The notes under the pieces were generated by a model. It saw nothing but the letters and a program-made list of their open reading frames with translations, was not told the origin of the DNA and did not search any database. From NCBI GenBank assembly GCA_017437005.1, contig JAFSBZ010000047.1, forward strand, positions 1-61,035: a stretch of DNA of 61,035 bases, read 5' to 3'. The position numbers were made by a program, and so were the translations under genes. Every line of letters starts with the position of its first letter. Position 1 is the first letter of the stretch. This DNA comes from Clostridia bacterium (lineage in GTDB: Bacteria; Bacillota; Clostridia; Oscillospirales; Acutalibacteraceae). Positions 37,401 through 57,782 of this stretch are shown one piece after another.

Positions 37401-37464
37401 TGCGGCTACAATATTTGTAATACTATTCAAAAAGCGCAAGCAAATTAATAAGGGGGCTAAATAA
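31444..37464 (+). CDS. Giant modular carbohydrate-binding surface protein
   Basis: This 2006-residue protein has a signal peptide (1-~40), then about ten beta-sandwich modules that look like carbohydrate-binding domains. Two open the protein (about 45-360); a YDSFW-type (386-541) and a FGQLYLHE-type (543-701) follow. Three tandem SFWFNEL-type modules (699-~1172) and two KSNTTYK/R-type modules (~1185-1480) come next. An InlB-like repeat (~1480-1550, FEGWYEYGDLVSTDETYRIK) and two larger modules (~1555-1900) complete the set. The C-terminus has an acidic linker, a run of lysines, one membrane helix (WVWVGIGAGALVVAAAATIF) and KKRK. No LPXTG was seen. It probably captures polysaccharide at the surface for the importers and lipoprotein glycosidase. 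Confidence 0.85.
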   Translation: MKLKFNKFFTKKFISVFAAIAILMTSLPLSALFTTVGAVSSGDIIDFEGSDAAGIVEGNDDFSITGQDSQDKYYFYAKNKTADVLTITFDNIQLQSGKQYTLDFDVYTLRVSKDANDVLLGLKMYGESECVFEKQIKNTDICEEDWANYHTSFTAIDDVNKLDFSIYTIGKVFIDNFVLIDENGKETAIDVAAACDSTELKDHFSMATLYDIAYEEPDIIDGYLKAAVPVNSTITHNEGVDIPMNLNKPLDKGRYTVTVDLKFTSVGSCRDAFCASVAGADYGIIQQKWLNAVDITLNKYNTYTFELDLTPDHTYFRLNVYQGCTAYIDNLALIDAAGIEVVRFDFDEPVNFKGSAYEQKGIAKTQAASAAFYSRLVTATAAKGSDNYAVLVDNSAGTGYDSFWMTALGYESPNLPSGEKYTISFDWYAEKVGSTNNGSLRVGKAHWNTSTVIQEKDTVWFDLPTETGSWVTITKEVTATDIIGAPYIYVGAGVKGYLDNFKITDSDGTVHSNVEFTANDLSKNSNCATVVALPKEEETTDDYAILIDNSANTGFGQLYLHEVGMPYDNTYAAGDYTIKFDFYALEIGSSKNIVAQLTKPDWSGDAFPGNGQKWLEVSETIGEWQTISFDITTVADGKFPWFYIGAGMKGYFDNYQIIDKSTGKTVLDFSPVAADLGKTSKEICTVVALPKDDDTESSTNDVLLIDTTAVDNNTPNSFWFNELGMAGYGALPNGTYTIQFDVYPFTMPTGGNLFHYRTGSGNGPSSDTGWWKPNFATEQWATTRSTFTVTNATTSGNHILYVYGGFKGYIDNLVVFDSNGNEVAGTRTDMSGLAVPDKYKDYLKLETLTTQNDEVETNDVLLVDTTTVADDGLANKSFWFNELGMTGYGDLPNGTYTIQFDVCALKMPESKNLFHFRTSKGSGSSKSGFWKPDLTIGEWATTSSTFTVTDDTTSGNHILYVYGGFKGYVDNLVILDASGKEVAGTRTGITGLNVPANDRVDYSPYLEIVTLTSSSEEVETNEVLLVDTTTVADDGSANKSFWFNELKMAGYGALANGTYTIQFDVCALKMPTSKNLFHFRTGSGNGASSDAGFWKPNLTIGEWTTTSSTFTVTDQTTSGNHILFVYGGFKGYIDNIVILDASGKEVKGTRTDITGLTVPDKHKDYLKIETIVISDGSDDSDDNDDVLSSGMNIAVLRGRAGKNGASIKLGGAKSPLTIKSNTTYKLSFNYYQANPTNAGVLNLFGIDTGFDNEITYFKKNNTTGWATGTVYFITGDVTDAAADWFEIVLNPNAWVYFDNFKLQEQEIDNNKAVSVIDFEEKDDSIYPDLVADNCTFGQTTDFNGTSNGGNGYFCASNAREYTNDDKNSNQQYQFGGIKLKSNTTYRVSIDYYVAKPINDYAFAVGYSQTNVGSGSGDSWQIWGNNKKVIGWNTESFVFTTGEVVPNAEYIKLVIYDTPDSSNPRVMYFDNITFTELYRIDSLSNNSELGTVSSTKTVEAGSDSKVVANPYAGVTFEGWYEYGDLVSTDETYRIKDVRDNHKLVAHFSGTPVKSNRIVQGFEDYDLGDILYEYYEIVDDPNNVLEGKQSLHVKGDKIEVNADHSVFFPLVSNVEAQLKEDTEYDVYVWIKPTEEPESTTYFQIVEGSGIVDMSDLLTSPGGTGMQRGIKPVKAAADGEENGWYKFLIGTVTKSMATRQGYGIQVCKFHAFRQEGASVDDMYIDMVELVERVPDYANLKFTESFFTEISNSNFEYEITDKDWAPLTAGVSVEKIADKQYDWQGDYNLKFDAAKSNGEEYVRVIPISKASKNYTFAAWTKLSEGSDISVGLYKNGKYETFENVVNGEKGTLGLIDDGKWNRVSFTFNSGDNENAYLVIKGTKGILELDMVDLFIATRAYATDPNSYGTNNTVLQMTNPIAFPDIIKTETTYIENDDASIDDNEDEDTDDEKTENNKKKKKKRVVKVLKNDGTSPWVWVGIGAGALVVAAAATIFVILFKKRKQINKGAK
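33541..34960 (+). repeat. Three tandem SFWFNEL modules
   Basis: Module starts at 33541, 34015 and 34504 (periods 474 and 489 bases, both in frame). Each encodes D(V)LL(I/V)DTT...SFWFNEL...NGTYTIQFDV...GNHIL(Y/F)VYGGFKGY(I/V)DN. Near-identical stretches such as TTSGNHIL suggest recent duplication. The same module occurs twice in the second giant surface protein (from about 58918 and 60948). Confidence 0.8.
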
Positions 37465-42227: not shown

Positions 42228-44342
42228 ATGAAATTTTTATATAATAATGCACTTTGTCTTGCTAAAGACGATAAAACTATTTTTGAAGGAATAAAATTTT
42301 GGATAAAAGGTCAAGGTGGCGAAAAAATATATCTTGACACTACATCTGTAAGTGAAACCGAGGTATTGTTTTCAAACAAATCGCAAGATATTACAGCAAA
42401 ACTCGGCTTAACCTGTGACGGCGACACAGCATCACTTGCTATAGATGTTGATTACAGTCCCGCTTTAGGTGATATATTCGGTCAAAATCATCTTGATACC
42501 GATGCCGCTGCAGGCATTGACATTTCGGCTATGCCAGAAGGCGAGTCGTATATGGCAAACTTTATGCGTTGCAGTTATTGGTGCGGAACAAAAATATTTG
42601 GCGATTTAAAAGAAATGCCCGAAAGAACTCAGGCTTTGCTTGCAAGGATGAATAACGGTGAATATGCCTATCTTTTGACAACCTGTGATAAGTATTTTAA
42701 AAGCAATATCATCGCAGGTGATAAATGTGGTTGCACGGTTTATATTTATAGCCGTTTTCCGCAAAGCAAATGTTCGGAATGTGTGCTTATATTGGGCTTC
42801 AATGCCGATCCGTACGTTTTGCCTAACATTACCGCCGAATATGGTATCAAGATAATGGGAAAACCAATAAAAATTCGAAAAGAAAGAAGATATCCTGAAG
42901 TATTCGAGTATTTGGGTTGGTGCAGCTGGGATGCATTCCATATGGATGTTACCCACGACGACTTGCTTAAAAAAGCCGATGAATTTAAACAAAAGGATAT
43001 TCCTGTTCGTTGGGTGATAATCGATGATATGTGGGCAGAGTGCCACAACAATAACCGTCCGACTATGCATTCGCGTGAAATGTATAATTTCGAGGCAGAT
43101 CCACAAAGATTTCCTAACGGACTTGCAGCAGCGGTTACCGACCTTAAACAAGATTACGGTATGAAGGTGGGTATCTGGTATCCTACAACAGGCTATTGGA
43201 ACGGTATAGATCCCGAAGGTCCGATTGCAAAAGAGCATAGTGATTTATTAACCGTTGGATTAAACGGTAGACTTTTACCTTCACCAGATCAAAACAAGTT
43301 GTTCCAGTATTTTTATATGTTTAACAGCTTCTTCCGTGGTTGCGGTGCAGATTTTGTTAAGGTGGATTATCAATCCTGCATATTAGACAACTACAACCGT
43401 TTGGTGCCAATTGGATTAATGGCTAACAACCTTCAAACTGCCATTGAAGCTACCGTTGGTGTATGCTTTGATGGAAATCTTATTAACTGTATGGGTATGG
43501 CAAACGAAAATTTCTGGAATAGACCTAACAGCATTATAAACCGTATTAGCGGCGACTTTATGCCAGAGGATAGAAAATGGTTTGTTCAGCATCTTATCCA
43601 GTGCAGTTTTAACGCCTTTGCACAAGGCAGCATATATACGGGTGACTGGGATATGTGGTGGTCCGATGATGCTCAGGGTACTAAAAATGCAGTGCTTCGT
43701 GCAATGAGTGGCGGACCTGTATATGTAAGCGACGAGCTTGGCAGAAGTGTAAAGGAAAAAATAATGCCAATTGTTTACAGTGACGGTAAAATAATAAGAC
43801 TTAAAGAGTCGGCACGTCCTGCTCCCGAATGTCTTATTGAAGACTGTGAGCACAACGGAAAAATCTATAAGGTGTTTAACAGAACAGAAAACGGCGGAAT
43901 TCTTGCAGCATTTAATATTGATGAAGACGAAAATAGTGTTTGCGGCAGCATTTCTACAAAAGATGTATATGGTATGACTGATTGCCGTTGCGCAGTTGTA
44001 GATTATTTTGCAAAAACAGTCACCATTTTAGAAAAAGGCGAAAGCTTAGACCTAACCCTTAAAAATTATGATGATTTCAGACTTTATTACATTATAGAGC
44101 TTAAATCTGATATAACACCTATAGGCGTAATGGATAAATATATGGCTCCCGCTACATTTGAAATGATTGCTGTTAATAAGTGTATAGTGGTAGAAGGCGG
44201 AGAATTTTATTTCACAGCCGATAAAGCTCCTGAAAATGTAACAACAAACGGTGTTGAGGTTGATGTTATTTCTGTTGGTGAAAAATTATTTGCCGTTAAA
44301 TTGTCAAAAGACGATAATAATGTATTACTTGAATGGAAGTAG
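42228..44342 (+). CDS. Sip1-related alpha-galactosidase / raffinose-synthase-like (GH36-type)
   Basis: This 704-residue protein has N-terminal beta-sandwich elements and a GH36/raffinose-synthase type barrel: LGWCSWDAFHMDV, VIIDDMWAECHNN, GIWYPTTGYWNGID, DFVKVDYQSC (nucleophile candidate D380) and NRISGDFMPED (acid/base candidate D443). A C-terminal beta-domain ends the protein. It has no signal peptide. Such enzymes release terminal alpha-galactose from oligosaccharides. The start lies 6 bases after the previous stop with a weak ribosome site, so translation is probably coupled. Confidence 0.82.
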   Translation: MKFLYNNALCLAKDDKTIFEGIKFWIKGQGGEKIYLDTTSVSETEVLFSNKSQDITAKLGLTCDGDTASLAIDVDYSPALGDIFGQNHLDTDAAAGIDISAMPEGESYMANFMRCSYWCGTKIFGDLKEMPERTQALLARMNNGEYAYLLTTCDKYFKSNIIAGDKCGCTVYIYSRFPQSKCSECVLILGFNADPYVLPNITAEYGIKIMGKPIKIRKERRYPEVFEYLGWCSWDAFHMDVTHDDLLKKADEFKQKDIPVRWVIIDDMWAECHNNNRPTMHSREMYNFEADPQRFPNGLAAAVTDLKQDYGMKVGIWYPTTGYWNGIDPEGPIAKEHSDLLTVGLNGRLLPSPDQNKLFQYFYMFNSFFRGCGADFVKVDYQSCILDNYNRLVPIGLMANNLQTAIEATVGVCFDGNLINCMGMANENFWNRPNSIINRISGDFMPEDRKWFVQHLIQCSFNAFAQGSIYTGDWDMWWSDDAQGTKNAVLRAMSGGPVYVSDELGRSVKEKIMPIVYSDGKIIRLKESARPAPECLIEDCEHNGKIYKVFNRTENGGILAAFNIDEDENSVCGSISTKDVYGMTDCRCAVVDYFAKTVTILEKGESLDLTLKNYDDFRLYYIIELKSDITPIGVMDKYMAPATFEMIAVNKCIVVEGGEFYFTADKAPENVTTNGVEVDVISVGEKLFAVKLSKDDNNVLLEWK

Positions 44343-45153: not shown

Positions 45154-45972
45154 GTGCTTTGCAGATGGCCGGTACCATATATAGAAAAAGGTAAAAATAT
45201 ATCCCTTAGCAGATATAAAACTATGTACGGAATAAATGTTCATACCCATTTGTATTTTGAGATTGAATATGTTTTAAGCGGGAACTGCTTTCAGAATTTT
45301 CAAAACACCTCTTACGAGTTCGCGCGAGGCGATATAGCACTATTTAAACCCGATTCAAGACACAAATATCAAACCTCTGGTGAGCTTGAGGTGTTAAGAT
45401 TAAAAATTAATCCTGAATTTCTTCCTCAAATATATAAATTACACGAACATGAATTTAGCACAGCAAACATTATTCATCTTCCGCCTAATGAGGTAAAAAG
45501 TGTAGAAAATATTTTGCTAACCATAGAAAAAGAGTTTAATGATAAAAATAAATTCTATTCTGAGGCAATATCGGGATATTTAGAGGTTTTATTTACATTA
45601 TTGATTCGTTTTCACACTACAAGTAAAAATGGAGAAGTTAAGGCATCGAATGTAGATTTCAAATCAATTATAGCTTATATTGAAAAAAATCTAAAAACAG
45701 TAACACCAAGTGCAGTTGCTTCATATTCGGGCTACAATTTTCCATATTTTTCAAAGCTGTTTAAAAAGCATACAGGTCGTAATTTGAGTGAATATATTAA
45801 TTTATTAAAGCTTGATGTAGCCTCTAAAATGTTAAGCGAAAGCAACAAGCGAATAGAAGCCATCGGTTATGAGGTTGGTTTTAATAACAAAAGTTATTTT
45901 TATCGCGTGTTCAAAAGATACTATGGTGTTACACCCGAAGAATATCGTAGATCGAGCAGAAAAAGAAATTAG
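45154..45972 (+). CDS. AraC family transcriptional regulator
   Basis: This 272-residue protein has an N-terminal cupin-like ligand domain (HTHLYFEIEYVLSGNCFQNF; FARGDIALFKPDSRHKYQTS) and a C-terminal two-helix-turn-helix AraC domain at ~170-268 (ASYSGYNFPYFSKLFKKHTG; IGYEVGFNNKSYFYRVFKRY; GVTPEEYRRS). It starts at GTG with TTAGGAGTG upstream. It lies inside the operon it most likely controls, sensing an imported sugar. The direct-repeat box at the two locus promoters is an obvious candidate site for it, which is inference. Confidence 0.92.
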   Translation: MLCRWPVPYIEKGKNISLSRYKTMYGINVHTHLYFEIEYVLSGNCFQNFQNTSYEFARGDIALFKPDSRHKYQTSGELEVLRLKINPEFLPQIYKLHEHEFSTANIIHLPPNEVKSVENILLTIEKEFNDKNKFYSEAISGYLEVLFTLLIRFHTTSKNGEVKASNVDFKSIIAYIEKNLKTVTPSAVASYSGYNFPYFSKLFKKHTGRNLSEYINLLKLDVASKMLSESNKRIEAIGYEVGFNNKSYFYRVFKRYYGVTPEEYRRSSRKRN

Positions 45973-46019
45973 TTAGTATTATGTATTATGTATCAGATTG
46001 TTTTGATCAAGGAGAAGGT

Positions 46020-47963
46020 ATGAACGATTTTAAAATTATATTAGATAACAGTGCAAATGTTGCTGCAAGCATAATTAAAAATGTTCCTGAAAAGAACGAT
46101 GTAAAGCTTTATGAGTTATTAAAGTATAAGGTGGATAAAAACACTTTTTATGATAATTGCTCCGGAGTAACGGTTCGTAGTAACACAGTTTGTAATATTA
46201 CAAAAAAACCGATAAGGCTTTCACATTTTAGTTCACTTTTTGTTGAAAATATTGCTCCTGATTTTCATAACAAGGATATACTTATACATATTTGTAATTT
46301 TGCTTGGCAAGGCGAGGCACAATGGGTGAGTATAACACCTTATGAGATGGGCTTATATCCTGTTTCAAAGCACTTTTTCTCTCATACCGACAAAACTATT
46401 TCAAACATCGGTAGTTGGTCTACTCACAAGTACTATCCTATTGTTCTTATAGAGGATAAAACCGGTAAAAAGGTTTGGTATTTTGAACTTGAATCAGCAA
46501 ACAATTGGTCATTTGAATTTGGAACCTTTACTGATGAAAAAACTGATATTACTTATCTAACCCTTGATTGTTCTGCTTGTAGTGAGAATAACAACGGATT
46601 TTACAAGGTATTAAAGCCGAACGAAAAATACCGTACACCCTCTGTTTTATACGGAATATCGGACAGTTTTGATAATGCAATTATTTCGCTCTTAAAGTAT
46701 AAGCGCAACCACGGGCTAAAACTTAACAAACTACCTGTATGTTTTAATGATTATATGAATTGCCTTTGGGCAATGCCAAGTCGCGACAAACTTTTACCGC
46801 TTATAGATACGGCTGCAAAAATAGGGGTTGAAACCTTTTGTATTGATGATGGCTGGTTTATAAGAGATGAAAACGGTACTGATTTTGGTGACTGGATTGA
46901 GAATGATGCGATTTTCGGTGACCAAGGATTTAAGGGTATTGTGGAATATATTAAAGCTAAGGGTATGACGCCTGGTATATGGCTTGAGCTTGAAACCGCA
47001 TTTTGCTTTGCTTCTATCTCAAAAATTGCTCCTAATGCCATACTTACTCGTTGTGGTATTCCGATAGGTGATGAAAGACAATTTCTTAATTTTGGTTGTA
47101 AAGAGGTAACCGATTATTTATATAGCAGGGTAAAACATTTATACGACCTTGGAATTCGTTATATAAAAAATGATTATAACCATAGTACAGGTATTGGTTG
47201 TGACGACGGCGACCTGTCATTTGCTGCAGCATTAATTGAAAATAATGAAAAGTTCTATCAGTTTATTGACAAAATAATTGCTGATATGCCAGACCTTACG
47301 ATAGAAAATTGCGGAAGTGGTGCTATGCGATGTGATAACAGCACTCTCAAGCATTTCCATTTGCAAAGTGTCAGCGATCAAGAAATATTTACAAACAATC
47401 CCTCTATAATCAGGGGTATGCAGTGCTGTATGCCACCTGAAAAAATGGGAATATGGAGTTTTCCATTCCCACTTTTATACGAACACCGTCTTGATACAAA
47501 GTCAGCATTTACTGAAGAATATATGCAACAAATGTCAGACGGCAACCAAACGATCTATAATATGGCTTGCGCATTTTTTGGAATTATGACATTATCCGGT
47601 CATATAGAAAAATGTGATGAGTATAATCTTTCACTTATAAAAAAAGCAATAGAAATATATAAGCAAGATAGCGATTTCATTTTAAATGCTACACCTGTGT
47701 TTATAGGCGAACAACAAAAAATATATACCAAAGGGTATAGTATTTTAGCTTTAAAAAATGAACAAAAAATAAGAATTGGCATATTCCGAAATGGTGGTGT
47801 TAATTCAATAGATTTTGAAATTCCACGTGAATTTTCAAACGGTAAATTTACCGAAATATATCCTTGTAATGAGGACAATAAAACAGCAACGTTAAAAGAC
47901 GGAATAATACACTTTGAACCTCAAAGTGAGATTACGGCTGCAGTGTATGAAATATTATTGTAA
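46020..47963 (+). CDS. Alpha-galactosidase, GH36
   Basis: This 647-residue protein has GH36 motifs: FCIDDGWFIRDENGTDFGDW, GMTPGIWLELETA, YIKNDYNHSTG (nucleophile candidate D385), ENCGSGAMRCD and SVSDQEIF (acid/base candidate D453). It has no signal peptide. The product should release alpha-galactose residues. It is distinct from the Sip1-related enzyme two genes upstream, so the substrate probably contains more than one alpha-galactosyl linkage or chain size. I chose the ATG at 46020 with AAGGAG five bases upstream; an upstream ATG at 45981 lacks a ribosome site. Confidence 0.88.
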   Translation: MNDFKIILDNSANVAASIIKNVPEKNDVKLYELLKYKVDKNTFYDNCSGVTVRSNTVCNITKKPIRLSHFSSLFVENIAPDFHNKDILIHICNFAWQGEAQWVSITPYEMGLYPVSKHFFSHTDKTISNIGSWSTHKYYPIVLIEDKTGKKVWYFELESANNWSFEFGTFTDEKTDITYLTLDCSACSENNNGFYKVLKPNEKYRTPSVLYGISDSFDNAIISLLKYKRNHGLKLNKLPVCFNDYMNCLWAMPSRDKLLPLIDTAAKIGVETFCIDDGWFIRDENGTDFGDWIENDAIFGDQGFKGIVEYIKAKGMTPGIWLELETAFCFASISKIAPNAILTRCGIPIGDERQFLNFGCKEVTDYLYSRVKHLYDLGIRYIKNDYNHSTGIGCDDGDLSFAAALIENNEKFYQFIDKIIADMPDLTIENCGSGAMRCDNSTLKHFHLQSVSDQEIFTNNPSIIRGMQCCMPPEKMGIWSFPFPLLYEHRLDTKSAFTEEYMQQMSDGNQTIYNMACAFFGIMTLSGHIEKCDEYNLSLIKKAIEIYKQDSDFILNATPVFIGEQQKIYTKGYSILALKNEQKIRIGIFRNGGVNSIDFEIPREFSNGKFTEIYPCNEDNKTATLKDGIIHFEPQSEITAAVYEILL

Positions 47964-47992: not shown

Positions 47993-49978
47993 ATGAATCA
48001 AACATTATACAACTACATACTAAATAAAAAGCATCATTCACATCGTCATAGTGTTGATTGGGATTTAGCTACCGAGTATTCGTCTAAAAATTTAAGTCCT
48101 ATAGAGCGTATGTCAGATCGTTTCACAAGACTTTGTGAAGAAGAAAAGGCTGTTATATTAGAAGGTGAACAAATAGTTTTTTTGCGCACAGTATCTAATC
48201 TTCCTGCTATTTTTACCGATGCTGAATGGAAAGAAATAAACAATAAACACTACATTCACGAGCTTGGCTTTATGTCAAACCTTTCTCCAAATTATTATGA
48301 TACTATCGCTACAGGTCTTTTAAGCAAACGAGAAACAGCCGATGAATACGGTAAAAAGGCCATAGATAATATAATTAAACTTTCAGATAAATATTTAGAA
48401 GAAGCTAAAAAACAGGGAAGAGACGACCTCGTCCAAGTGCTTAGTCAGGTGCCACGTTATCCTGCGCGTAATTTTCGTGAGGCATTGCAGTTTTTTAGAA
48501 TTTTGCACTTTGCTCTTTGGCTTGAAGGTAACTATCACAATACTATAGGTCGTTTTGACAAGTATATGTTTCCATACCTTAAAGCCGATATGGAAAAGGG
48601 CGTTTATACACAGGAGACAGCACTTGAGCTATTAGAGGATTTCTTCCTCTCGTTTAATAAAGATAGCGATATCTACGTTGGTGTGCAACAAGGTGATAAC
48701 GGACAAAGTATGATGTTAGGCGGTGTTGATGAAGACGGTAACGACGTTTACAATCTTTTGTCAGAGCTTTGTCTTAAAGCTTCGTGCAATAACAAAATGA
48801 TAGACCCTAAAATTAATTTAAGGGTTTCTAAAAACACACCTGCAGACCGATATACCGAGGCCACAAAGTTAACGCGTGCAGGTCTTGGTTTTCCGCAGTA
48901 TTCAAATGATGACGTTGTAATTCCTGCTCTTGAGGCTATGGGCTACAGTCATAACGATGCAGTGAATTACACCGTTGCGGCTTGTTGGGAATTTATTATT
49001 CCAAACGTTGGTGCCGATGTTGCAAATATTGCGGCGCTTTCATATCCAAAGGCTGTGGATACTGCATTACACAACAGTCTTAATAAAGCCAACACATATG
49101 AAGAATTTTTTGGTTTTGTAAAGACAGAAATTGAGAAAGAATGTAACACAATTTGTGAAAATATAAATAATCTTTGGTTTATACCGTCACCGTTTATGAA
49201 TGTACTTATGGACTGCGATATATACACCGGTGGTAAGTATAACAACTTTGGTATTCACGGTACGGGTATTGCCACAGCGGCAGATAGTCTTGCGGCAATT
49301 AAAAAATACGTTTTTGAAGAAAAGTCTATCAGTAAGGATGAACTTATAGCTGCAGTAGACAATAACTTTGAAAACACGCCCGAACTATTACATAAACTTC
49401 GTTATGAATCACCAAAGCTTGGTAACAACGACGATTTTGTTGATAGCATTGCAACCGAACTTTTAGATACATTTGGTAATGCGCTAAAGGGTAAAACCAA
49501 CTGCCGTGGAGGTATATATCGCGCAGGTACGGGTAGCGCTATGTATTATCTGTGGCACGCTAACGAAATAGGTGCTTCAGCCGACGGCAGACGCGAAAAA
49601 GAACCCTTTGGTACTAACTATTCGGTATCGCTATTTGCTAATGTTAAGGGTCCGGTATCGGTAATAGCATCTATGACAAAGCAGCATTTTGAAAATGCTA
49701 TGAACGGTGGACCGCTAACACTCGAATTTCATCAAAGCATTTTTGCCGATGATGATGGAATCCAAAAGGTAGGTCTTTTGGTTAAAAACTTTATAGACCG
49801 AGGCGGTCATCAGCTACAGCTTAATACCGTAAATCTTGACCGTATGCTCGATGCCCAAAAGCACCCCGAAAATCACAGACAGTTGGTAGTGCGTATTTGG
49901 GGTTGGAGCGCATACTTTGTAGAGCTTGATAAAGAGTATCAAGACCACGTTATTGCAAGACAGGCATACACAGTATGA
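47993..49978 (+). CDS. Glycyl radical enzyme, divergent, unknown substrate
   Basis: This 661-residue protein belongs to the pyruvate-formate-lyase/glycyl-radical superfamily. The radical loop near the C-terminus reads VVRIWGWSAYF, with radical glycine candidate G637, 25 residues before the end. The thiyl cysteine candidate is C331 in AACWEFIIP, with E333 two residues on; this CxE form is the one used by dehydratase/lyase members, not the CC of pyruvate formate-lyase. It is shorter than most members (750-850). The W flanking the glycine on both sides departs from the usual R-[IV]-[CSA]-G-[YF]. Its stop codon overlaps the activase start. It sits between an alpha-galactosidase and a six-hairpin glycosidase, suggesting a sugar-derived substrate. 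Confidence 0.85.
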   Translation: MNQTLYNYILNKKHHSHRHSVDWDLATEYSSKNLSPIERMSDRFTRLCEEEKAVILEGEQIVFLRTVSNLPAIFTDAEWKEINNKHYIHELGFMSNLSPNYYDTIATGLLSKRETADEYGKKAIDNIIKLSDKYLEEAKKQGRDDLVQVLSQVPRYPARNFREALQFFRILHFALWLEGNYHNTIGRFDKYMFPYLKADMEKGVYTQETALELLEDFFLSFNKDSDIYVGVQQGDNGQSMMLGGVDEDGNDVYNLLSELCLKASCNNKMIDPKINLRVSKNTPADRYTEATKLTRAGLGFPQYSNDDVVIPALEAMGYSHNDAVNYTVAACWEFIIPNVGADVANIAALSYPKAVDTALHNSLNKANTYEEFFGFVKTEIEKECNTICENINNLWFIPSPFMNVLMDCDIYTGGKYNNFGIHGTGIATAADSLAAIKKYVFEEKSISKDELIAAVDNNFENTPELLHKLRYESPKLGNNDDFVDSIATELLDTFGNALKGKTNCRGGIYRAGTGSAMYYLWHANEIGASADGRREKEPFGTNYSVSLFANVKGPVSVIASMTKQHFENAMNGGPLTLEFHQSIFADDDGIQKVGLLVKNFIDRGGHQLQLNTVNLDRMLDAQKHPENHRQLVVRIWGWSAYFVELDKEYQDHVIARQAYTV

Positions 49979-50730
49979 CAGGAATAATTTTTGATGTAAA
50001 AGAAATGGCGGTACATGACGGCCCCGGTATTAGAACAACTGTCTTTTTAAAGGGCTGTCCGCTAAGCTGTGCTTGGTGTCATAATCCCGAAGGTTTATCC
50101 TTTGAGCCACAGCTTATGTATAAAGCCGTAAGATGTATTGACTGCAAAAGCTGTCAAAGAGAGTGCAATCATCCCGAATGTCAAGCTTTTGGAAGATGTA
50201 TTCATTCGTGTCCCGAAAACTGCCTTGAAATCGCCGGCAGAGAAATAACGCCACAAGAATTGGCAAACGACCTCAAAAAATCTGCCGATGTTTTAGGTGA
50301 CAGCTTTGGCGGCTTTACTTTTTCGGGCGGCGAGCCGTTAGCACAACCCGAGTTTCTTTTACAACTTATTAAAGAGCTAAATAACTATAATTTGTGTATA
50401 GAAACAAGCGGTTTTGCCGAAAGCGACGTTTTTAAAGAAGTAATAGACAAGCTTGATTTTGTTATTATGGATATTAAATTAGCCGACACCGAAATTCACA
50501 AAAAATATACGGGCGTTGACAATGATTTAATACTTAATAACTTTAAATATTTAAAACAAAGCGGAAAACCGTATGTTATTCGCACGCCGCTAATTCCAAA
50601 TATCACCGATACAAAAGAAAATCTTACAGCAATTAAAAACATAATCGGTGACAGCAATTGGGAGCAGTTGCCTTACAACGCTGCTGCAGGCGCAAAATAC
50701 AAAATGCTTGGCATGAATTATAAACTGTGA
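49975..50730 (+). CDS. Glycyl radical enzyme activase (radical SAM)
   Basis: This 251-residue protein has the radical SAM cysteine motif C28-x3-C32-x2-C35 in KGCPLSCAWCHNPE. A second cysteine-rich segment (CIDCKSCQRECNHPECQAFG and CIHSCPENC) would bind auxiliary iron-sulfur clusters. FTFSGGEPLAQ is the SAM-binding GGE motif. It abstracts hydrogen from G637 of the preceding enzyme using SAM and ferredoxin-type electrons. It overlaps the enzyme gene by four bases (ATGA), giving coupled translation and balanced amounts. Confidence 0.93.
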   Translation: MTGIIFDVKEMAVHDGPGIRTTVFLKGCPLSCAWCHNPEGLSFEPQLMYKAVRCIDCKSCQRECNHPECQAFGRCIHSCPENCLEIAGREITPQELANDLKKSADVLGDSFGGFTFSGGEPLAQPEFLLQLIKELNNYNLCIETSGFAESDVFKEVIDKLDFVIMDIKLADTEIHKKYTGVDNDLILNNFKYLKQSGKPYVIRTPLIPNITDTKENLTAIKNIIGDSNWEQLPYNAAAGAKYKMLGMNYKL

Positions 50731-50760: not shown

Positions 50761-52350
50761 ATGTCATTTAAATACAAATGGGATATAAATGATTATAATT
50801 TTTACGATTCATATGTAAAATTCACAGCCGATGATAAGGCACTACAGGGTGTTTTTGACGATTGCGAAGCGCTATGTAAACAAAATATAAAAAATTTTGG
50901 CGACTATGATGTTTTGATAGAAGGTGCAAAATACAGTGGCGTTTGGTTAGAAACTCAACCAATGGGTGGCGAAATGTATGCCAAGCGCAGTATAAAAACA
51001 GCACTTTCAAATATACTTATATTCTTGCGATATCAACGTCGCGACGGCAAGATGCCGGGTATGATATCATACCGTGATCCTTGGTCAGGACTTGTTGCGC
51101 ATTATGATTGGATGCAGGGCTGTTTTTTGCCGTATCCTGCGCTTAAGCTATATTATCTTATAGGTGAAGATAAAGATTATTTAAAAATGCTTTATAAAGC
51201 GCTTGAGGATTTTGATACTTATTTATGGAGTTATCGCGATAGCACAGGTGACGGATGTTTAGAAAACTGGTGTATTTGGGATGTTGGCGAGGACAATGCC
51301 ACACCTTATATGCTTAACGGTCTTACTATGCCGGAGCACGGCCCTTGGGGCAAATCAACCCCTCCTGACAATTATATGAATATGCCCTACAAATCCCCAC
51401 AATATATGGGTTATTCGTATTCTTGCAGAATGGTTTTATCTCATATTTCAAAAATTTTAGATAACGGATTGGCTGAAAAATGGGAATCAGATGCAAAAGC
51501 TGTACAGCAAAGGGCAAAAGAATGCTTGTGGGACGAACATCGTCACGCATTTTTCCTTAAGGATAAAAACGGACAGGTAATACCGGCCCTTACACAAGAG
51601 AATATAAAGTGTATGTACTGTGGACTAATGACACAAGAAATGGCTGATGCGTTTGTTAGCGAGCATCTTTTAAACGAGGACGAATTTTGGACTCCATATC
51701 CTTTGCCTGCAATTGCAGCAAATGATCCGTACTTCCATGTTAATAAACAGTATTCTAATTGTGCGGACAAGCTTAAACAGCTTGGCACTGCCGCACACGA
51801 TATAGACGATAATTCTTGGTCTGGTCCACTGCACGGTCTTGTTTGGCAAAGAAGTATTGATGCGCTTATAAATTACGGTTATCATAACGAAACCATAATG
51901 ATTGGTAAAAAACTACTTTCCATACTTAAAGAGCATCGTAAATACGTGCAAAATTACAATCCGTTTACAGGTGTTCCGTCTAAAGGTATGGACGGTTACG
52001 GTCCAACTATGCTTTCAGCACTTGAATATATAAGTATGCTTTGCGGAATTAACGTAAGCTATAAAAAGATTTATTGGACTGCCGCAACCGAAATAGGTGG
52101 CTTCACCTATGTTCAAAATATTTACGGTAGGGAATATAAGCTTATGTCAAACGGTGACAAAATGAGTACATATATTGATGGCGAAAAAGTTTTCACAGCA
52201 TCCACAGGCGCAAGAATACAAACCGATTTAGACGGAAATATTTTATGCGTTTACGGCGTATCGCAAAATGAGATTGATTTTAGCTTGAATTATAATAATA
52301 AATATTTAAAGCAAAAGCTCTGTGCAAATGATTGTATAGACGAATTCTAA
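50761..52350 (+). CDS. Six-hairpin (alpha/alpha)6 glycosidase
   Basis: This 529-residue protein has an (alpha/alpha)6-toroid pattern, with QPMGGEMYAKRSIKTALSNI, DPWSGLVAHYDWMQGC, CLENWCIWDVGEDNATPYML and NSWSGPLHGLVWQRSIDALI. The WSGP segment and helical repeats resemble GH63/GH37/GH78-like enzymes and mannosylglycerate hydrolase relatives, without a firm family. A short beta-rich tail ends it. There is no signal peptide, so it acts on imported oligosaccharides. AAGGAGA precedes its ATG. Confidence 0.75.
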   Translation: MSFKYKWDINDYNFYDSYVKFTADDKALQGVFDDCEALCKQNIKNFGDYDVLIEGAKYSGVWLETQPMGGEMYAKRSIKTALSNILIFLRYQRRDGKMPGMISYRDPWSGLVAHYDWMQGCFLPYPALKLYYLIGEDKDYLKMLYKALEDFDTYLWSYRDSTGDGCLENWCIWDVGEDNATPYMLNGLTMPEHGPWGKSTPPDNYMNMPYKSPQYMGYSYSCRMVLSHISKILDNGLAEKWESDAKAVQQRAKECLWDEHRHAFFLKDKNGQVIPALTQENIKCMYCGLMTQEMADAFVSEHLLNEDEFWTPYPLPAIAANDPYFHVNKQYSNCADKLKQLGTAAHDIDDNSWSGPLHGLVWQRSIDALINYGYHNETIMIGKKLLSILKEHRKYVQNYNPFTGVPSKGMDGYGPTMLSALEYISMLCGINVSYKKIYWTAATEIGGFTYVQNIYGREYKLMSNGDKMSTYIDGEKVFTASTGARIQTDLDGNILCVYGVSQNEIDFSLNYNNKYLKQKLCANDCIDEF

Positions 52351-52368: not shown

Positions 52369-54633
52369 ATGTCAAATTTAGGTTTTTTTTATAACGATAA
52401 AAAAGAGTATACAATTACCAATATGCGTCCGCGCAGACCACTTAAAAACTTTCTTTGGAATGAACAGTTTATTATGATACTTGACCATTTTGGTTTTGGT
52501 GAAAGCTTTAGATACATTAACCCCGAAGAACGCAGGTTTGTGGTTAATGATGGTGAGGCAGGTCGATTGATATATATCAAAGACCGCGAGACCGGCGAGT
52601 TTTATGACGCAAACCGTAATTATGCAAATAAATCTTTTGATAAATACGAGTGTAATGTTGGTATTGGATATCAGCAAATAGTAAGTGAGTACAAGGGAAT
52701 AGAAACAAAGTTTACTCTCGCTGCACCAACCGAAGGCTTTGCAGAGCTTTGGAAAATTGAAGTAAAAAACAATTCTGACACAACTCGAAAAATTGACTTA
52801 ATACCATACTGCCGTCCGTCTGTTAATGTTACAAGTCATTTAGCTTATGGACACGCCGATTACGAGAAAAAGCTTGATGGCTTATATTTTAGTCACGATG
52901 CGTATAACATTAGCCATAATTGTGTTGGTGTTTATATGAAGGCATCAATGTCTCCTGCTTCATACGACATTACCGACATTAATTTTAAAGGTATTTATAA
53001 TAGTTGGGCAGAACCTCAAGCACTTTATAATGAGAGCTTGTCAAATAAGGGTTCTTCGTTTGATAGCACCTATTGCGGCGCAATGCAGTTTGCACTTGAT
53101 ATATTATCGGGTGAGCAAAAAACTATATATGTAGTTTTAGGTATGTGTACCGATTTGGATGATGCTGTTAATTTAAGTGATATGTATTTGTCTGACGGAT
53201 TTTTTGAACAGTCTATTGCTGCAGTTAAAAATGATGCTGATGCTATGGACAATCTTTTTGTTCTTGAATCACCCGATGAATATATCAATATAATGACTAA
53301 TATTTGGCTCAAAAGACAAATTTCGTTGGGTAAGACATGGGGACGTGTATATAACAAGGGTTTCCGTGATATTATGCAGGACACAGCAGGTCTTGCAGCA
53401 TTTGACGGTAAAATGGCAAGAGAAAAAATCAAGGTTTGCCTTGCAACACAGCGTCCAAACGGTAATCCAATGCGTTCCTTTGCGCCTATTGACCGTGACC
53501 CTTATTACGATGGTGCTGTTTGGACTCCTGAAACAGTGCTTGCATATATTAATGAAACCGGCGATTTAACGGTTCTTGATGATGATGTTCCGTATTTTGA
53601 GTCTGATGAACACGATAGCGTTTTTGAACATATGTATCGTGGATTAAGATTTTTACTTGATAATCGTGGCGAGCACAATATGGTGTTATGGGGCGGCGGC
53701 GATTGGAATGATTCAATCAATAATGCGGGTAACCAGCTTAAAGGTGAGAGCGCTTGGTTAAGCATTGCAACCGTTAAGGCTATAAAAGAATTTTGCCGCA
53801 TTTGCGAAATAATCGGCGGCAAGGACGAACTTATTAATAAGCTTACCAAAGAAAGAGAAATATTAAAATCTGCCGTTTTAGAACACGCTTTCGAGGGTGA
53901 TCAGTTTACTTATGGTATAAATGACTGGGGTGAAAAGGTAGGCTCACACGAAAGTTATCAGGCAAAAACATATCTAAATTCTCAAACATGGGCTGTTTTG
54001 GCAGAAATGCTTGATAATGACGGTCTTAACAAAATAATGCAAACCGTAGAGGATAAGCTTAAATGCGATTTTGGATATGTTCAGTGCGCTCCTGCCTATA
54101 GTGAAAAGGATTTACACATTGGTCGAATGGCATATTTTATCCCAGGTGGTTATGAAAACGGCTCGGTATACAATCATGGTGTAGCGTTTAAAATTGCAGC
54201 AGATTGTATGCTCGGTAAAGCTGACACAGCTTACGAAAGCCTAAAAATGATTTGTTATGACAACCCCAAAAATCTTAACTCGGGTGTAGAACCATACGTT
54301 GTTACCAATATGTTCTTTGGTCCGCAAGAAAAATATCGTCCGGGATTTTCTTTCTATGCATGGTTTACAGGCGCTGCGGGCTGGGTATATCGTGATATTA
54401 CCGAGTTTATACTTGGTGTAAAAGGTGAGTATACCGGGCTTAAGATTAATCCGTGTATGCCGTCTGCTTGGAATAATATTTTCGTTTCACGCGTATACAG
54501 AGGCGCTACATACAATATTACTTATAAGCGCACAGGCAGTTATAAGCTTACCGTTGACGGAAAAGTAATAAGCGGTAATATAGCACCGATTTTTCCTGAA
54601 GGCAGTAATCATACTGTTGTTTGTGAATTTTAA
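52369..54633 (+). CDS. GH94-type disaccharide phosphorylase
   Basis: This 754-residue protein has an N-terminal beta-sandwich (NMRPRRPLKNFLWNEQFIMI, GVGYQQIVSEYKG-like elements) and an (alpha/alpha)6 barrel. The barrel has GHxD-like WGRVYNKGFRDIMQD, TQRPNGNPMRSFAPIDRDPY and the GGGDWNDSIN motif holding the general-acid aspartate region (D445-D448). FIPGGYENGSVYNHG and the phosphate-binding HESYQAKTYLNSQ-like part also fit GH94. Such enzymes split a disaccharide with phosphate to a sugar 1-phosphate, saving ATP. No signal peptide. The acceptor and donor sugar are unknown. Confidence 0.85.
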   Translation: MSNLGFFYNDKKEYTITNMRPRRPLKNFLWNEQFIMILDHFGFGESFRYINPEERRFVVNDGEAGRLIYIKDRETGEFYDANRNYANKSFDKYECNVGIGYQQIVSEYKGIETKFTLAAPTEGFAELWKIEVKNNSDTTRKIDLIPYCRPSVNVTSHLAYGHADYEKKLDGLYFSHDAYNISHNCVGVYMKASMSPASYDITDINFKGIYNSWAEPQALYNESLSNKGSSFDSTYCGAMQFALDILSGEQKTIYVVLGMCTDLDDAVNLSDMYLSDGFFEQSIAAVKNDADAMDNLFVLESPDEYINIMTNIWLKRQISLGKTWGRVYNKGFRDIMQDTAGLAAFDGKMAREKIKVCLATQRPNGNPMRSFAPIDRDPYYDGAVWTPETVLAYINETGDLTVLDDDVPYFESDEHDSVFEHMYRGLRFLLDNRGEHNMVLWGGGDWNDSINNAGNQLKGESAWLSIATVKAIKEFCRICEIIGGKDELINKLTKEREILKSAVLEHAFEGDQFTYGINDWGEKVGSHESYQAKTYLNSQTWAVLAEMLDNDGLNKIMQTVEDKLKCDFGYVQCAPAYSEKDLHIGRMAYFIPGGYENGSVYNHGVAFKIAADCMLGKADTAYESLKMICYDNPKNLNSGVEPYVVTNMFFGPQEKYRPGFSFYAWFTGAAGWVYRDITEFILGVKGEYTGLKINPCMPSAWNNIFVSRVYRGATYNITYKRTGSYKLTVDGKVISGNIAPIFPEGSNHTVVCEF

Positions 54634-55814: not shown

Positions 55815-57116
55815 ATGTATTTAGCAGAAATTTTTACTGACCATATGGTTTTACAACGTGATAAAGATATTTGCGTTTTTGGTTATGGTAAAGGTAGTGG
55901 CGAAATTGAGTTTTGTGGAAAAACATATACGTTTACTTCAACTACCGAGAAATTTTATGTATATCTTGCTCCGCAAAGCGTAGGTGGACCATATGAAATG
56001 ATGGTTACACTTAACGGTAGTACAAGAGTAATAAAAGATATTTTGATTGGTGACGTTTATATAGCGGCAGGGCAATCTAATATGGAACTACCGCTATGCG
56101 CAACACATAATATTGAATATTTTGAAAATGAAAATATCCGCTTTTTTACCGAGCCTCATACTGCTGATGAAGACGGTAACCTACTATATAAACCAACCGA
56201 ATGGTTTTTGTGTGATAAATCTGTTGGAGATTTTTCGGCAATTGGTTATTATTTTGCAGTGGGGTTACAAAAAAGCACAAACGTACCAATAGGTGTAATA
56301 TGTTGCTCAAAAGGCGCATCGCGTGTAGATGCTTGGACAGCATCTCAATACGTTCAACACGAAGATTATCAAAAAATGCAATCGGTAAAACACAACGATT
56401 ATTACGTGTATAAATTTAATCACGATTCGTGGCTTTATAATAACAAGCTTTTAAGTATTGTTCCGTTTGCAAATTCAGGTGTTTTGTGGTATCAGGGTGA
56501 AAGCAACCGTTGTCACGACGAGGGTGTGCATTATGCAAAGTTACTCGAAATTATGATAAAAAATTGGCGAGAGCTTTGGCAGTGTAATTTACCTTTTTAT
56601 TGTGTACAGCTTATGCCATACGATGAAGCGCCAGACGTTGCCGATTGGGCTGTTATTCGCAGTCAGCAGCAACTGGCGGCACAAACAGTTGATAATGTTT
56701 ATCTTGTTACACTTGTTAATACGGGTGAAAAGAACGAGATACATCCTACAAAAAAGAAAGACATTGCATATGCATTGTCAAACGCTGTACGTGCTGTTCA
56801 ACATAATGAAAGTGTCGAATATAGCGGACCTGTTTTACAAACATACAAGCATATAAAAAATGGGGTAGAGCTTGTTTTTTCTCATGCCGAGGGTTTACAT
56901 CTTAAGGGCAATGAGTTGCAAGATACGTATGTTTATGATGAAGAAGACCGATTACTTCAAGTCGATTTTCTGTTAGAGAAAAGCTCGTTAATAATTATTT
57001 GCAAATGTGGCGTGGCACCCAAAACAATTACAATGGGTTATAACAACGCGCCCGAGCATAATCTTTATAATAATTCGGGTTATTTGGCTTCACCGTTTAA
57101 ATTAATGCTTAATTAA
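55815..57116 (+). CDS. Sialate O-acetylesterase-like SASA esterase
   Basis: This 433-residue protein has the SASA-type motifs GQSNME (S88 nucleophile candidate), LWYQGESN and EIHPTKK near the end, which supplies the Asp/Glu-His pair. The N-terminus (FTDHMVLQRDKDICVFGYGK) is the jelly-roll typical of these esterases. No signal peptide. It should remove acetyl groups from sugars, either sialic acids or acetylated plant glycans, after import. Confidence 0.87.
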   Translation: MYLAEIFTDHMVLQRDKDICVFGYGKGSGEIEFCGKTYTFTSTTEKFYVYLAPQSVGGPYEMMVTLNGSTRVIKDILIGDVYIAAGQSNMELPLCATHNIEYFENENIRFFTEPHTADEDGNLLYKPTEWFLCDKSVGDFSAIGYYFAVGLQKSTNVPIGVICCSKGASRVDAWTASQYVQHEDYQKMQSVKHNDYYVYKFNHDSWLYNNKLLSIVPFANSGVLWYQGESNRCHDEGVHYAKLLEIMIKNWRELWQCNLPFYCVQLMPYDEAPDVADWAVIRSQQQLAAQTVDNVYLVTLVNTGEKNEIHPTKKKDIAYALSNAVRAVQHNESVEYSGPVLQTYKHIKNGVELVFSHAEGLHLKGNELQDTYVYDEEDRLLQVDFLLEKSSLIIICKCGVAPKTITMGYNNAPEHNLYNNSGYLASPFKLMLN

Positions 57117-57131
57117 AAAGGAGAGATAATT

Positions 57132-57782
57132 ATGTTAGAGAATTTAAGACAAAAAAATTCCGATATTGAAATTTTTTCAGTCGAGAGTGAAGAATTTAAG
57201 AAATTTGGTCGTATAATCAATGATATTTCCACCGACGAGATTATCAATGTTGCCAAAAGTGTTGAGCCTGTGGGTAGTGGAAGCTCTTATGTTCCGTCAT
57301 ACAGTGATTTTGAAAAATTAGATATAGCTACCGAAATTAAAAACAAGCTTTTTGGTATAATGCCTACTCAAATTGGATACTGTTGGGGATATAACAGCTT
57401 AATGAACGCAACCGAATGGCATACCTCAAGTGAAATTAATATTGCCGTAACTCCTTTAGTTCTTATTTTAGGTTATATTTGGGATATAGAAGACGGAAAA
57501 ATCGATTCATCAAAATTTAAGGCGTTTTATTTGCCACAAGGAACAATTGTTGAGGTGTATGCAACTTCGCTACACTACTGCCCTTGTCAAGTAAGTGATA
57601 GCGGCTTCGGCTGTGTGGTCGGACTTCCTGCTGAAACAAATACCCAATTAGAAATAAAAAGTGACGATAAACTGCTTTTATGCAAAAACAAATGGCTTAT
57701 TTCTCATAAAGAAAATGCCGAACTTGAAGGCACTGATATGTATGTTGGACTTACAGGTAAAAACATTAAAATTAGTTATTAA
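57132..57782 (+). CDS. DUF4867 family protein
   Basis: This 216-residue protein matches my memory of DUF4867, a cupin-like family found beside sugar-use genes in Clostridia. Visible features are GYCWGYNSLMNATEWHTSSE, ATSLHYCPCQVSDSGFGCVV and VLPQGT-like FYLPQGTIVEVYA. Its reaction is not known to me; a sugar isomerase or epimerase would fit the cupin barrel. It starts with AAGGAGAG and is the last gene before the next promoter. Confidence 0.75.
   Translation: MLENLRQKNSDIEIFSVESEEFKKFGRIINDISTDEIINVAKSVEPVGSGSSYVPSYSDFEKLDIATEIKNKLFGIMPTQIGYCWGYNSLMNATEWHTSSEINIAVTPLVLILGYIWDIEDGKIDSSKFKAFYLPQGTIVEVYATSLHYCPCQVSDSGFGCVVGLPAETNTQLEIKSDDKLLLCKNKWLISHKENAELEGTDMYVGLTGKNIKISY

Follow-up and report, generated by a model that had tools for sequence, protein, structure and literature searches.

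A divergent eliminase-type glycyl radical enzyme family with its activase, predicted to act on a sugar or alditol

What does a glycyl radical enzyme (GRE) do among glycosidase genes, and does it belong to a known type? This question is raised by a 61,035-nucleotide stretch of DNA from a Clostridia bacterium of the family Acutalibacteraceae (assembly GCA_017437005.1, contig JAFSBZ010000047.1; the whole stretch is hereafter called the window), in which a GRE gene is followed by the gene for a radical S-adenosylmethionine (SAM) activase. The initial annotation, made from the sequence alone, had proposed a radical dehydratase or lyase acting on a sugar, deoxysugar or uronate-derived compound in a glycan-degradation operon. 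Our analysis identified a gene pair with conserved Gly, Cys and Glu residues, a predicted fold, purifying selection and a position in a separate clade, termed the W-G-W family here. With moderate confidence, we read it as a new eliminase-type GRE family with its activase, predicted to act on a sugar or alditol.

The enzyme and activase genes overlap by four bases (ATGA), in agreement with the initial annotation. The enzyme matched PF02901 (3.5e-86, profile positions 211-637 of 647) and PF01228 (1.8e-19), both over the cut-off, and the activase matched Radical_SAM in Pfam and the subfamily model TIGR02494 in NCBIfam (255 bits; cut-off, 174). Thus, the PFL-like and Gly_radical domains, the glycyl loop, the active-site Cys, the fold and a cognate activase that characterize the GRE superfamily were all found. 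The Cys loop reads A-A-C331-W-E333, and R-I-W-G637-W-S-A-Y-F forms the glycyl loop. According to the accessible part of PMC7077986, GRE eliminases are marked by C-x-E in the first of these loops. The enzyme scored below every NCBIfam cut-off searched, including that of the general model TIGR01774 (306 bits; cut-off, 678). The best equivalog by bits was HypD (288; cut-off, 1100), and the scores were 270 and 260 for the sulfopropanediol dehydratase models (cut-off, 1000), 228 for CutC (1050), 172 for 4-hydroxyphenylacetate decarboxylase (HPAD; 1150) and 85 for pyruvate formate-lyase (PFL; 994). The genome itself, which is 85 percent complete, encodes two other GREs, on contigs C40 (33175-35655) and C24 (42008-44179); in the tree described below, they grouped with GrpM/glycerol dehydratase and with PflB, respectively.

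A pattern-based scan of one genome per species, covering 84,980 species, yielded 64 loci, 63 of which belong to the W-G-W family; the remaining one, L094 (31 percent), lies outside. When 200 genomes from the taxonomic family of the window were searched, 95 gave some GRE match at a threshold of 1e-20, and the W-G-W family was present with an identity of no less than 44 percent in at least 18, of which four had a partial gene. A recount by tblastn gave 79 distinct loci in total, namely 63 from named records, 15 others and the window. Counts of motifs and activases below refer to these 79 loci, and those of operons, AraC regulators and protein clusters to 75 loci, without L018, L089, L091 and L095. 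Most named records are bins of the Clostridia type recovered from deer, goat, sheep, buffalo, horse and rumen. Further carriers are Acetatifactor muris (DSM 23669) and Ructibacterium gallinarum (DSM 107454), both in culture, six Thermoguttaceae, one Planctomycetia and three bins, of which two bear the title Erysipelotrichaceae and the third the title Spirochaetaceae (L089, 55 percent). In one locus (L077:9980-11982), the family gene is split into two frames, which is either real or an assembly error. All 140 matches in plasmid records were less than 60 percent identical, and the annotated ones among the 25 matches listed were other GREs. No title or abstract opening in the open-access literature surveyed describes the family, a coverage that leaves most subscription journals outside and is no proof of its being unpublished.

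Both C-W-E and R[IV]WGWS were kept in all 73 distinct loci that cover the respective sites (six loci do not). C331-x-E333 and V-V-R-I-W-G637-W-S-A, with Trp on both sides of the Gly, had been singled out in the initial annotation and proved to be hallmarks of the whole family, and the eliminase-type Cys loop is thus general to it. G-D-N-G is present in 73/73 loci, N96 is invariant in the 69 loci covering it (10 do not), and the loop 222-239 contains many invariant polar and acidic residues. The ratio of non-synonymous to synonymous substitution rates (dN/dS) against the nearest full-length relatives was 0.040 (L034) and 0.041 (L078), whereas three remoter pairs were saturated. With both motifs invariant and dN/dS about 0.04, the observation is far beyond chance. 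A same-strand activase lies within 1.5 kb of the enzyme in 70 of the 74 distinct loci with room for one. The family members are 634-709 residues long (61 listed references, without 14 truncated or broken loci), and the 661 residues of the window enzyme are indeed short, as had been remarked: the references span 760 (PflB), 765 (PflD), 798-803 (HypD), 810 (YbiW), 832-857 (HpsG/IslA) and 853-867 (CutC) residues, those of HypD, HpsG and CutC being open frames and hence slightly over-long. The gene almost certainly encodes a functional enzyme.

Phylogenetic placement was investigated with two trees, the first of 65 tips and 553 columns and the second, to which three HPAD references were added, of 66 tips and 560 columns. 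They included the window enzyme with 27 and 25 of the 61 family references, respectively (L021 was left out), and benzylsuccinate synthases were in neither. The W-G-W family was monophyletic on a long stem, with SH-like approximate likelihood ratio test/ultrafast bootstrap (SH-aLRT/UFBoot) supports of 98.9/100 and 99.1/100. In the first tree, the sampled glycerol and propanediol dehydratases (GDH/PD), PflD, YbiW, HypD, CutC and HpsG/IslA grouped together without the family (91.4/85); in the second, a clade of 24 tips held all sampled characterized types and HPAD, with zero family members (89.5/95). Support labels beyond the family node are possibly displaced by rerooting, and we therefore put weight on this node and on approximately unbiased (AU) tests. 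The AU test rejected joining the family to GDH/PD (p = 0.035), PflD (0.044), YbiW (0.026), HypD (0.036), CutC (0.005) and HpsG/IslA (0.006), the values for PflD, YbiW and GDH being modest and the constrained searches fast ones. Joining to the second GRE of A. muris was also rejected (p = 0.009). Joining to the companion GREs of R. gallinarum (0.60), the PFL outgroup (0.27) or HPAD (0.062) was not rejected. The W-G-W family is a separate eliminase-type clade outside the characterized clades sampled, with a sister group that the trees do not pin down; the superfamily placement proposed as a check in the initial annotation thus turned out in favor of a divergent enzyme, and the place inside a characterized clade that would have refuted the initial annotation was not found, HPAD being the one type within the clade of the characterized enzymes whose joining escaped rejection.

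Several other GREs were observed alongside the family. Short enzymes (661-749 residues) with C-G-W-N or S-G-W-S loops are present in L026, L030, L036 (6310-8556) and L037 (17313-19295) and likewise fall outside the characterized types in the tree. In A. muris (L068:7592-9889) and a Lachnospiraceae bin (L070:4947-7355), another GRE with G-C-Q-E and R-I-G-G-F-S is located upstream of the family member and has its own activase; that of L068 is below every NCBIfam cut-off. Two genomes of the same taxonomic family, G132 and G198, contain unusually many GRE candidates (16 and 11 at first look, six each scored).

The AlphaFold2 model, built with 47 family sequences, had a mean predicted local distance difference test score of 90.4 and a predicted template modeling (TM) score of 0.90. 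Its Foldseek matches in the PDB were CutC, glycerol dehydratase, propanediol dehydratase, HypD, PflD and YbiW, mostly with query-normalized TM scores of 0.82-0.86, one CutC chain being lower (0.73). When HypD was mapped onto the enzyme by sequence alignment, the catalytic Cys, Glu and Gly were conserved, whereas its substrate residues were changed: H160 to N96, D278 to Y181, S334 to Y228, D339 to N236, F340 to G237, Y450 to A348 and T645 to A516. This mapping is uncertain near gaps, at D278, S334, D339 and F340. In the accessible part of PMC7077986, from which the residue roles are taken, a role in tuning the catalytic Glu of HypD is proposed for H160; the invariant Asn at N96 is therefore a real difference. 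The conserved Gly, Cys and Glu, together with the fold, make eliminase chemistry likely.

What, then, is the substrate? In the window, the pair stands between a Melibiase-type glycoside hydrolase family 36 (GH36) gene upstream and an MGH1-like gene downstream, in the places where an alpha-galactosidase and a six-hairpin glycosidase had been recognized at first; the nearest NCBIfam equivalog of the GH36 protein is beta-L-arabinopyranosidase (199 bits; cut-off, 1100). The coordinates are given in Table 1. As had also been stated, no microcompartment gene was found among the 20 window proteins scanned with Pfam, a subset of the open reading frames (ORFs) of the window. Two very large ORFs (2374 and 2006 residues) are located at 87-7211 and 31444-37464.

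Table 1 Features of the glycyl radical enzyme locus in the window.
Feature	Positions	Strand	Basis
Raffinose-synthase-like GH36 protein; cluster found in 11/75 distinct family loci	42228..44342	+	Pfam, clustering
AraC-type regulator	45154..45972	+	Pfam
GH36 (Melibiase), immediately upstream of enzyme	45981..47963	+	Pfam, NCBIfam
Glycyl radical enzyme of W-G-W family, 661 residues	47993..49978	+	ORF, Pfam, NCBIfam, AlphaFold model, Foldseek
N96, aligned with HypD H160, invariant Asn in family	48278..48280	+	Alignment
C331-W332-E333, presumed thiyl Cys and eliminase Glu (C-x-E)	48983..48991	+	Sequence
Radical loop R634-I-W-G637-W-S639	49892..49909	+	Sequence
Radical SAM activase, 251 residues, C-x3-C-x2-C and further Cys-rich stretch	49975..50730	+	ORF, Pfam, NCBIfam
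MGH1-like six-hairpin glycosidase	50761..52350	+	Pfam
GH94 family (phosphorylase-type) protein	52369..54633	+	Pfam
SASA-type carbohydrate esterase	55815..57116	+	Pfam
DUF4867 cupin-type protein, end of window operon; nearest solved structure 9gyy	57132..57782	+	Pfam

Across the family, raffinose-synthase-like proteins of the same cluster are immediate neighbors of the pair in L064, L066, L068, L070, L071 and L075, GH127 is upstream in L037 and L054, and a Sugar_tr-type major facilitator superfamily (MFS) gene is directly upstream in five Planctomycete loci (L080 among them). An AraC regulator of the same cluster as that of the window is divergent and immediately upstream in 17/68 distinct loci. 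We compared 102 of the 103 proteins encoded within two genes of the pair in 44 loci with 103 proteins (sampled from 139) encoded six or more genes away in the same loci. Among the 25 of 141 Pfam families listed for the near set were GDSL (7), Raffinose_syn (6), Sugar_tr (4), GFO_IDH_MocA (4), FGGY (3), TatD (3), AAA_2 of the ClpX type (3), beta-helix (3), GH127 (2), DUF4867 (2) and Aldo_ket_red (2), whereas no family had more than two members among the 25 of 156 listed for the far set. Carbohydrate genes are thus enriched near the pair, and the neighbors that recur are GH36-like proteins, SGNH esterases, MFS sugar transporters, GH127 and DUF4867.

Some operons contain candidate partners for sugar metabolism. 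DUF4867 is encoded between the enzyme and the activase in L034 and L078, and a GDSL-type protein takes this position in seven loci (one confirmed by Pfam scan). In L051, the order is GlcD-like, iron-sulfur (Fe-S) protein, class II aldolase, PfkB, IolB (219.6 bits; cut-off, 205), GalM-like (called by eye from the sequence), DUF4867, xylulokinase-like FGGY, electron transfer flavoprotein (ETF), enzyme, GDSL and activase. IolB exceeded the cut-off in 13 of the 200 genomes of the taxonomic family; in the nine clusters inspected, the Fe-S protein, aldolase, FGGY and ETF were present in 9/9 and GlcD-like was called in eight. As an observation in its own right, L146-L154 and L051:229-9916 share a conserved cluster of GlcD-like oxidase (84-95 percent identical to that of L051), Fe-S protein, class II aldolase, PfkB, IolB, DUF4867 and/or GalM-like, FGGY and ETF, which may be a sugar pathway possibly ending in hydroxy-acid oxidation. 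The cluster of the L146-L154 type is often preceded by a gene for a protein of 466-480 residues; a fucose-isomerase type, suggested by eye for the first gene, was discarded, as a PF02952 search did not report it. In R. gallinarum (L071:2-9014), the operon encodes three GREs, DeoC (229 bits; cut-off, 117), a zinc alcohol dehydrogenase-type protein and an FGGY kinase above the xylulokinase cut-off. Two of these GREs are additional divergent ones, and the first of the two, truncated at the edge of the locus, aligned with C-M-G rather than C-x-E.

Associations at the genome level were examined by comparing the 18 family-carrying genomes with the other 182, uncorrected for relatedness and number of tests. 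DUF4867 was present in 9/18 versus 29/182 (p = 0.0018), and IolB over the cut-off in 5/18 versus 8/182 (p = 0.0027). FucI_C (15/18 versus 81/182, p = 0.0022), UxaC (16/18 versus 97/182, p = 0.0048) and GH127 (12/18 versus 59/182, p = 0.0079) behaved similarly. Within the 60 genomes having FucI_C, UxaC and GH127, DUF4867 was found in 7/11 with the family versus 12/49 without it (p = 0.027). The IolB link thus consists of one operon (L051) and a weak genome association. In the window's own genome, DUF4867 occurs at this locus alone, and no IolB or AraA match was obtained in that 85 percent complete assembly.

From this gene context and the polar loop 222-239, we lean towards a sugar or alditol as the substrate, and several observations weigh against it. 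The operon (same strand, gaps of less than 300 bases) consists of the enzyme and activase alone in 18/75 distinct loci, several of which have short flanks, and of the pair with just one GDSL gene between in four more; pairs also adjoin RadA-type, ClpX, H+-pyrophosphatase, IF-3, MetRS/TatD and PurH genes. Because of these lone pairs and frequent housekeeping neighbors, context does not fix one substrate. The radical enzyme is in 0/9 IolB clusters, in some of which DUF4867 or GalM is lost or swapped, and AraA is not associated with the family (5/18 versus 38/182 genomes, p = 0.55). Since FucI_C, UxaC and GH127 behave similarly, the DUF4867 and IolB associations may just mark glycan-feeding genomes. 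A conserved linkage to glycosidases was therefore rejected: the linkage is frequent and not conserved. Of the sugar-acting role in a glycan operon first put forward, the divergent eliminase-type enzyme and the frequent carbohydrate context held, whereas the conserved linkage did not, and its absence, which the initial annotation had named as a ground for doubt, was partly borne out.

The probable reaction is removal of a hydroxyl group from a sugar, and the enzyme is most likely a dehydratase. By established GRE chemistry, the activase, with SAM and a [4Fe-4S] cluster, would place the radical on G637, from which it would move to C331. The C331 thiyl radical would abstract a hydrogen atom at a CHOH position of the substrate, the hydroxyl proton would go to E333, and the neighboring OH (or a ring or glycosidic oxygen) would depart; return of the hydrogen from C331 would then give a deoxy-ketose or deoxy-aldose. 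Judging from context, the substrate may be a sugar or alditol freed from glycans of plant or host origin, and its product may enter isomerase, kinase and aldolase steps. With a deoxy-ketose or deoxy-aldose as product, DUF4867, FGGY, aldolase and DeoC would be fitting partners. Inositol, arabinose, a uronate and an anhydro-sugar were considered as candidates.

A bolder proposal can be offered tentatively: this could be the first GRE family to dehydrate a monosaccharide or alditol in its free, unphosphorylated form, or to cleave a glycoside by radical elimination, and herbivore gut bacteria would thereby have a sugar catabolism that is sensitive to oxygen. Its route might start with a transporter or glycosidase, go on with a radical dehydration that yields a deoxy-ketose or 2-deoxy-aldose, and continue through DUF4867 and an isomerase, an FGGY or PfkB kinase, and class II aldolase or DeoC. 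Three versions of it might be seen in the MFS sugar transporter by the Planctomycete pairs, the IolB-FGGY-aldolase operon of L051 and the DeoC-FGGY operon of R. gallinarum.

Alternatively, the substrate could be a small fermentation intermediate shared by many diets, such as a diol or hydroxy acid of the C3-C4 range, in the manner of glycerol and propanediol dehydratases, and the glycan genes would reflect only the life of these bacteria on glycans. We think this unlikely. It would account for the stand-alone pairs beside housekeeping genes, the nearest solved relative by phmmer is B12-independent glycerol dehydratase, and glycerate kinase is the upstream neighbor in L059. Against this, the AU test rejected grouping with GDH/PD, a GrpM/GDH-like enzyme is already encoded on contig C40 of the same genome, the 25 near-set families listed include neither alcohol or aldehyde dehydrogenases nor shell families, and Sugar_tr and raffinose-synthase-like neighbors recur. 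A lyase opening the ring of a sugar phosphate or anhydro-sugar in the mode of YbiW and PflD, converged from another branch, appears improbable: those enzymes turn 1,5-anhydrohexitol 6-phosphates into 1-deoxyfructose 6-phosphate (stated in the accessible part of PMC12441222), the fold is common and some operons have FGGY and PfkB kinases, whereas joining to YbiW or PflD was rejected, if modestly, the pocket positions mapped from HypD differ, and no phosphotransferase system (PTS) gene was recognized among the 20 window proteins scanned with Pfam. A decarboxylase or other relative of the arylacetate decarboxylases is very improbable, since HPAD, although its joining was not rejected at 5 percent, is a far sub-cut-off equivalog with its three references in the clade of other characterized types (second tree), and the window pair leaves no room for a small-subunit gene (47963/47993 and 50730/50761; other loci were not searched).

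Returning to the sugar or alditol reading, GREs set how anaerobes use choline, hydroxyproline, isethionate and propanediol, and a sharply defined new family in rumen and hindgut bacteria, with ties to sugar genes in many genomes, is a concrete target. As A. muris DSM 23669 and R. gallinarum DSM 107454 carry it, its substrate is testable. The family might also help explain the DUF4867 proteins (SftX/SqvD), which are its partner in the window, L034, L051 and L078, not the enzyme itself. In the accessible part of PMC11968277, these are proposed as ketose mutarotases or ring isomerases, with no mutarotation in assay, and occur in sulfoglycolysis and FucI/FGGY clusters.

Among known systems, identity with CutC and with HpsG/IslA was rejected, the former by its sub-cut-off score and both by the AU tests. 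A Cys-Cys pair is typical of PFL. The W-G-W enzyme has A330-C331, where PflB aligns A-C-C, and its score on TIGR01255 is far below the cut-off, so that a spare PFL was dismissed; joining to the PFL outgroup, as given above, was not rejected. A non-glycine aminoacyl radical enzyme (AARE; PMC11528403, accessible part) was likewise dismissed, since the radical Gly is kept in every covering locus. B12-independent glycerol dehydratase (1r8w) and 1,2-propanediol dehydratase (5i2a, 9rco) share the Gly, Cys, C-x-E and fold (TM 0.82-0.85), but the structural-alignment identity is 23-26 percent, the family enzyme is more than 100 residues shorter, and their G-C-V-E and A-G-Y contrast with A-A-C-W-E and W-G-W in a separate clade. 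HypD, the trans-4-hydroxyproline dehydratase, is a C-x-E eliminase like the family and differs from it in score, in the seven substrate residues and in clade. YbiW and PflD have C-x-E and the same fold and act on sugar derivatives, whereas they lie in another clade and pflD is found among PTS genes. They cleave 1,5-anhydroglucitol and 1,5-anhydromannitol 6-phosphates to 1-deoxyfructose 6-phosphate (PMC12441222, accessible part), and the PDB titles of 8id7 and 8id0 agree with this role. GREs acting on sugar derivatives are therefore already known, so that the initial statement that such a role had not been described was too strong, and YbiW and PflD provide the precedent beside which the W-G-W family stands as a separate clade.

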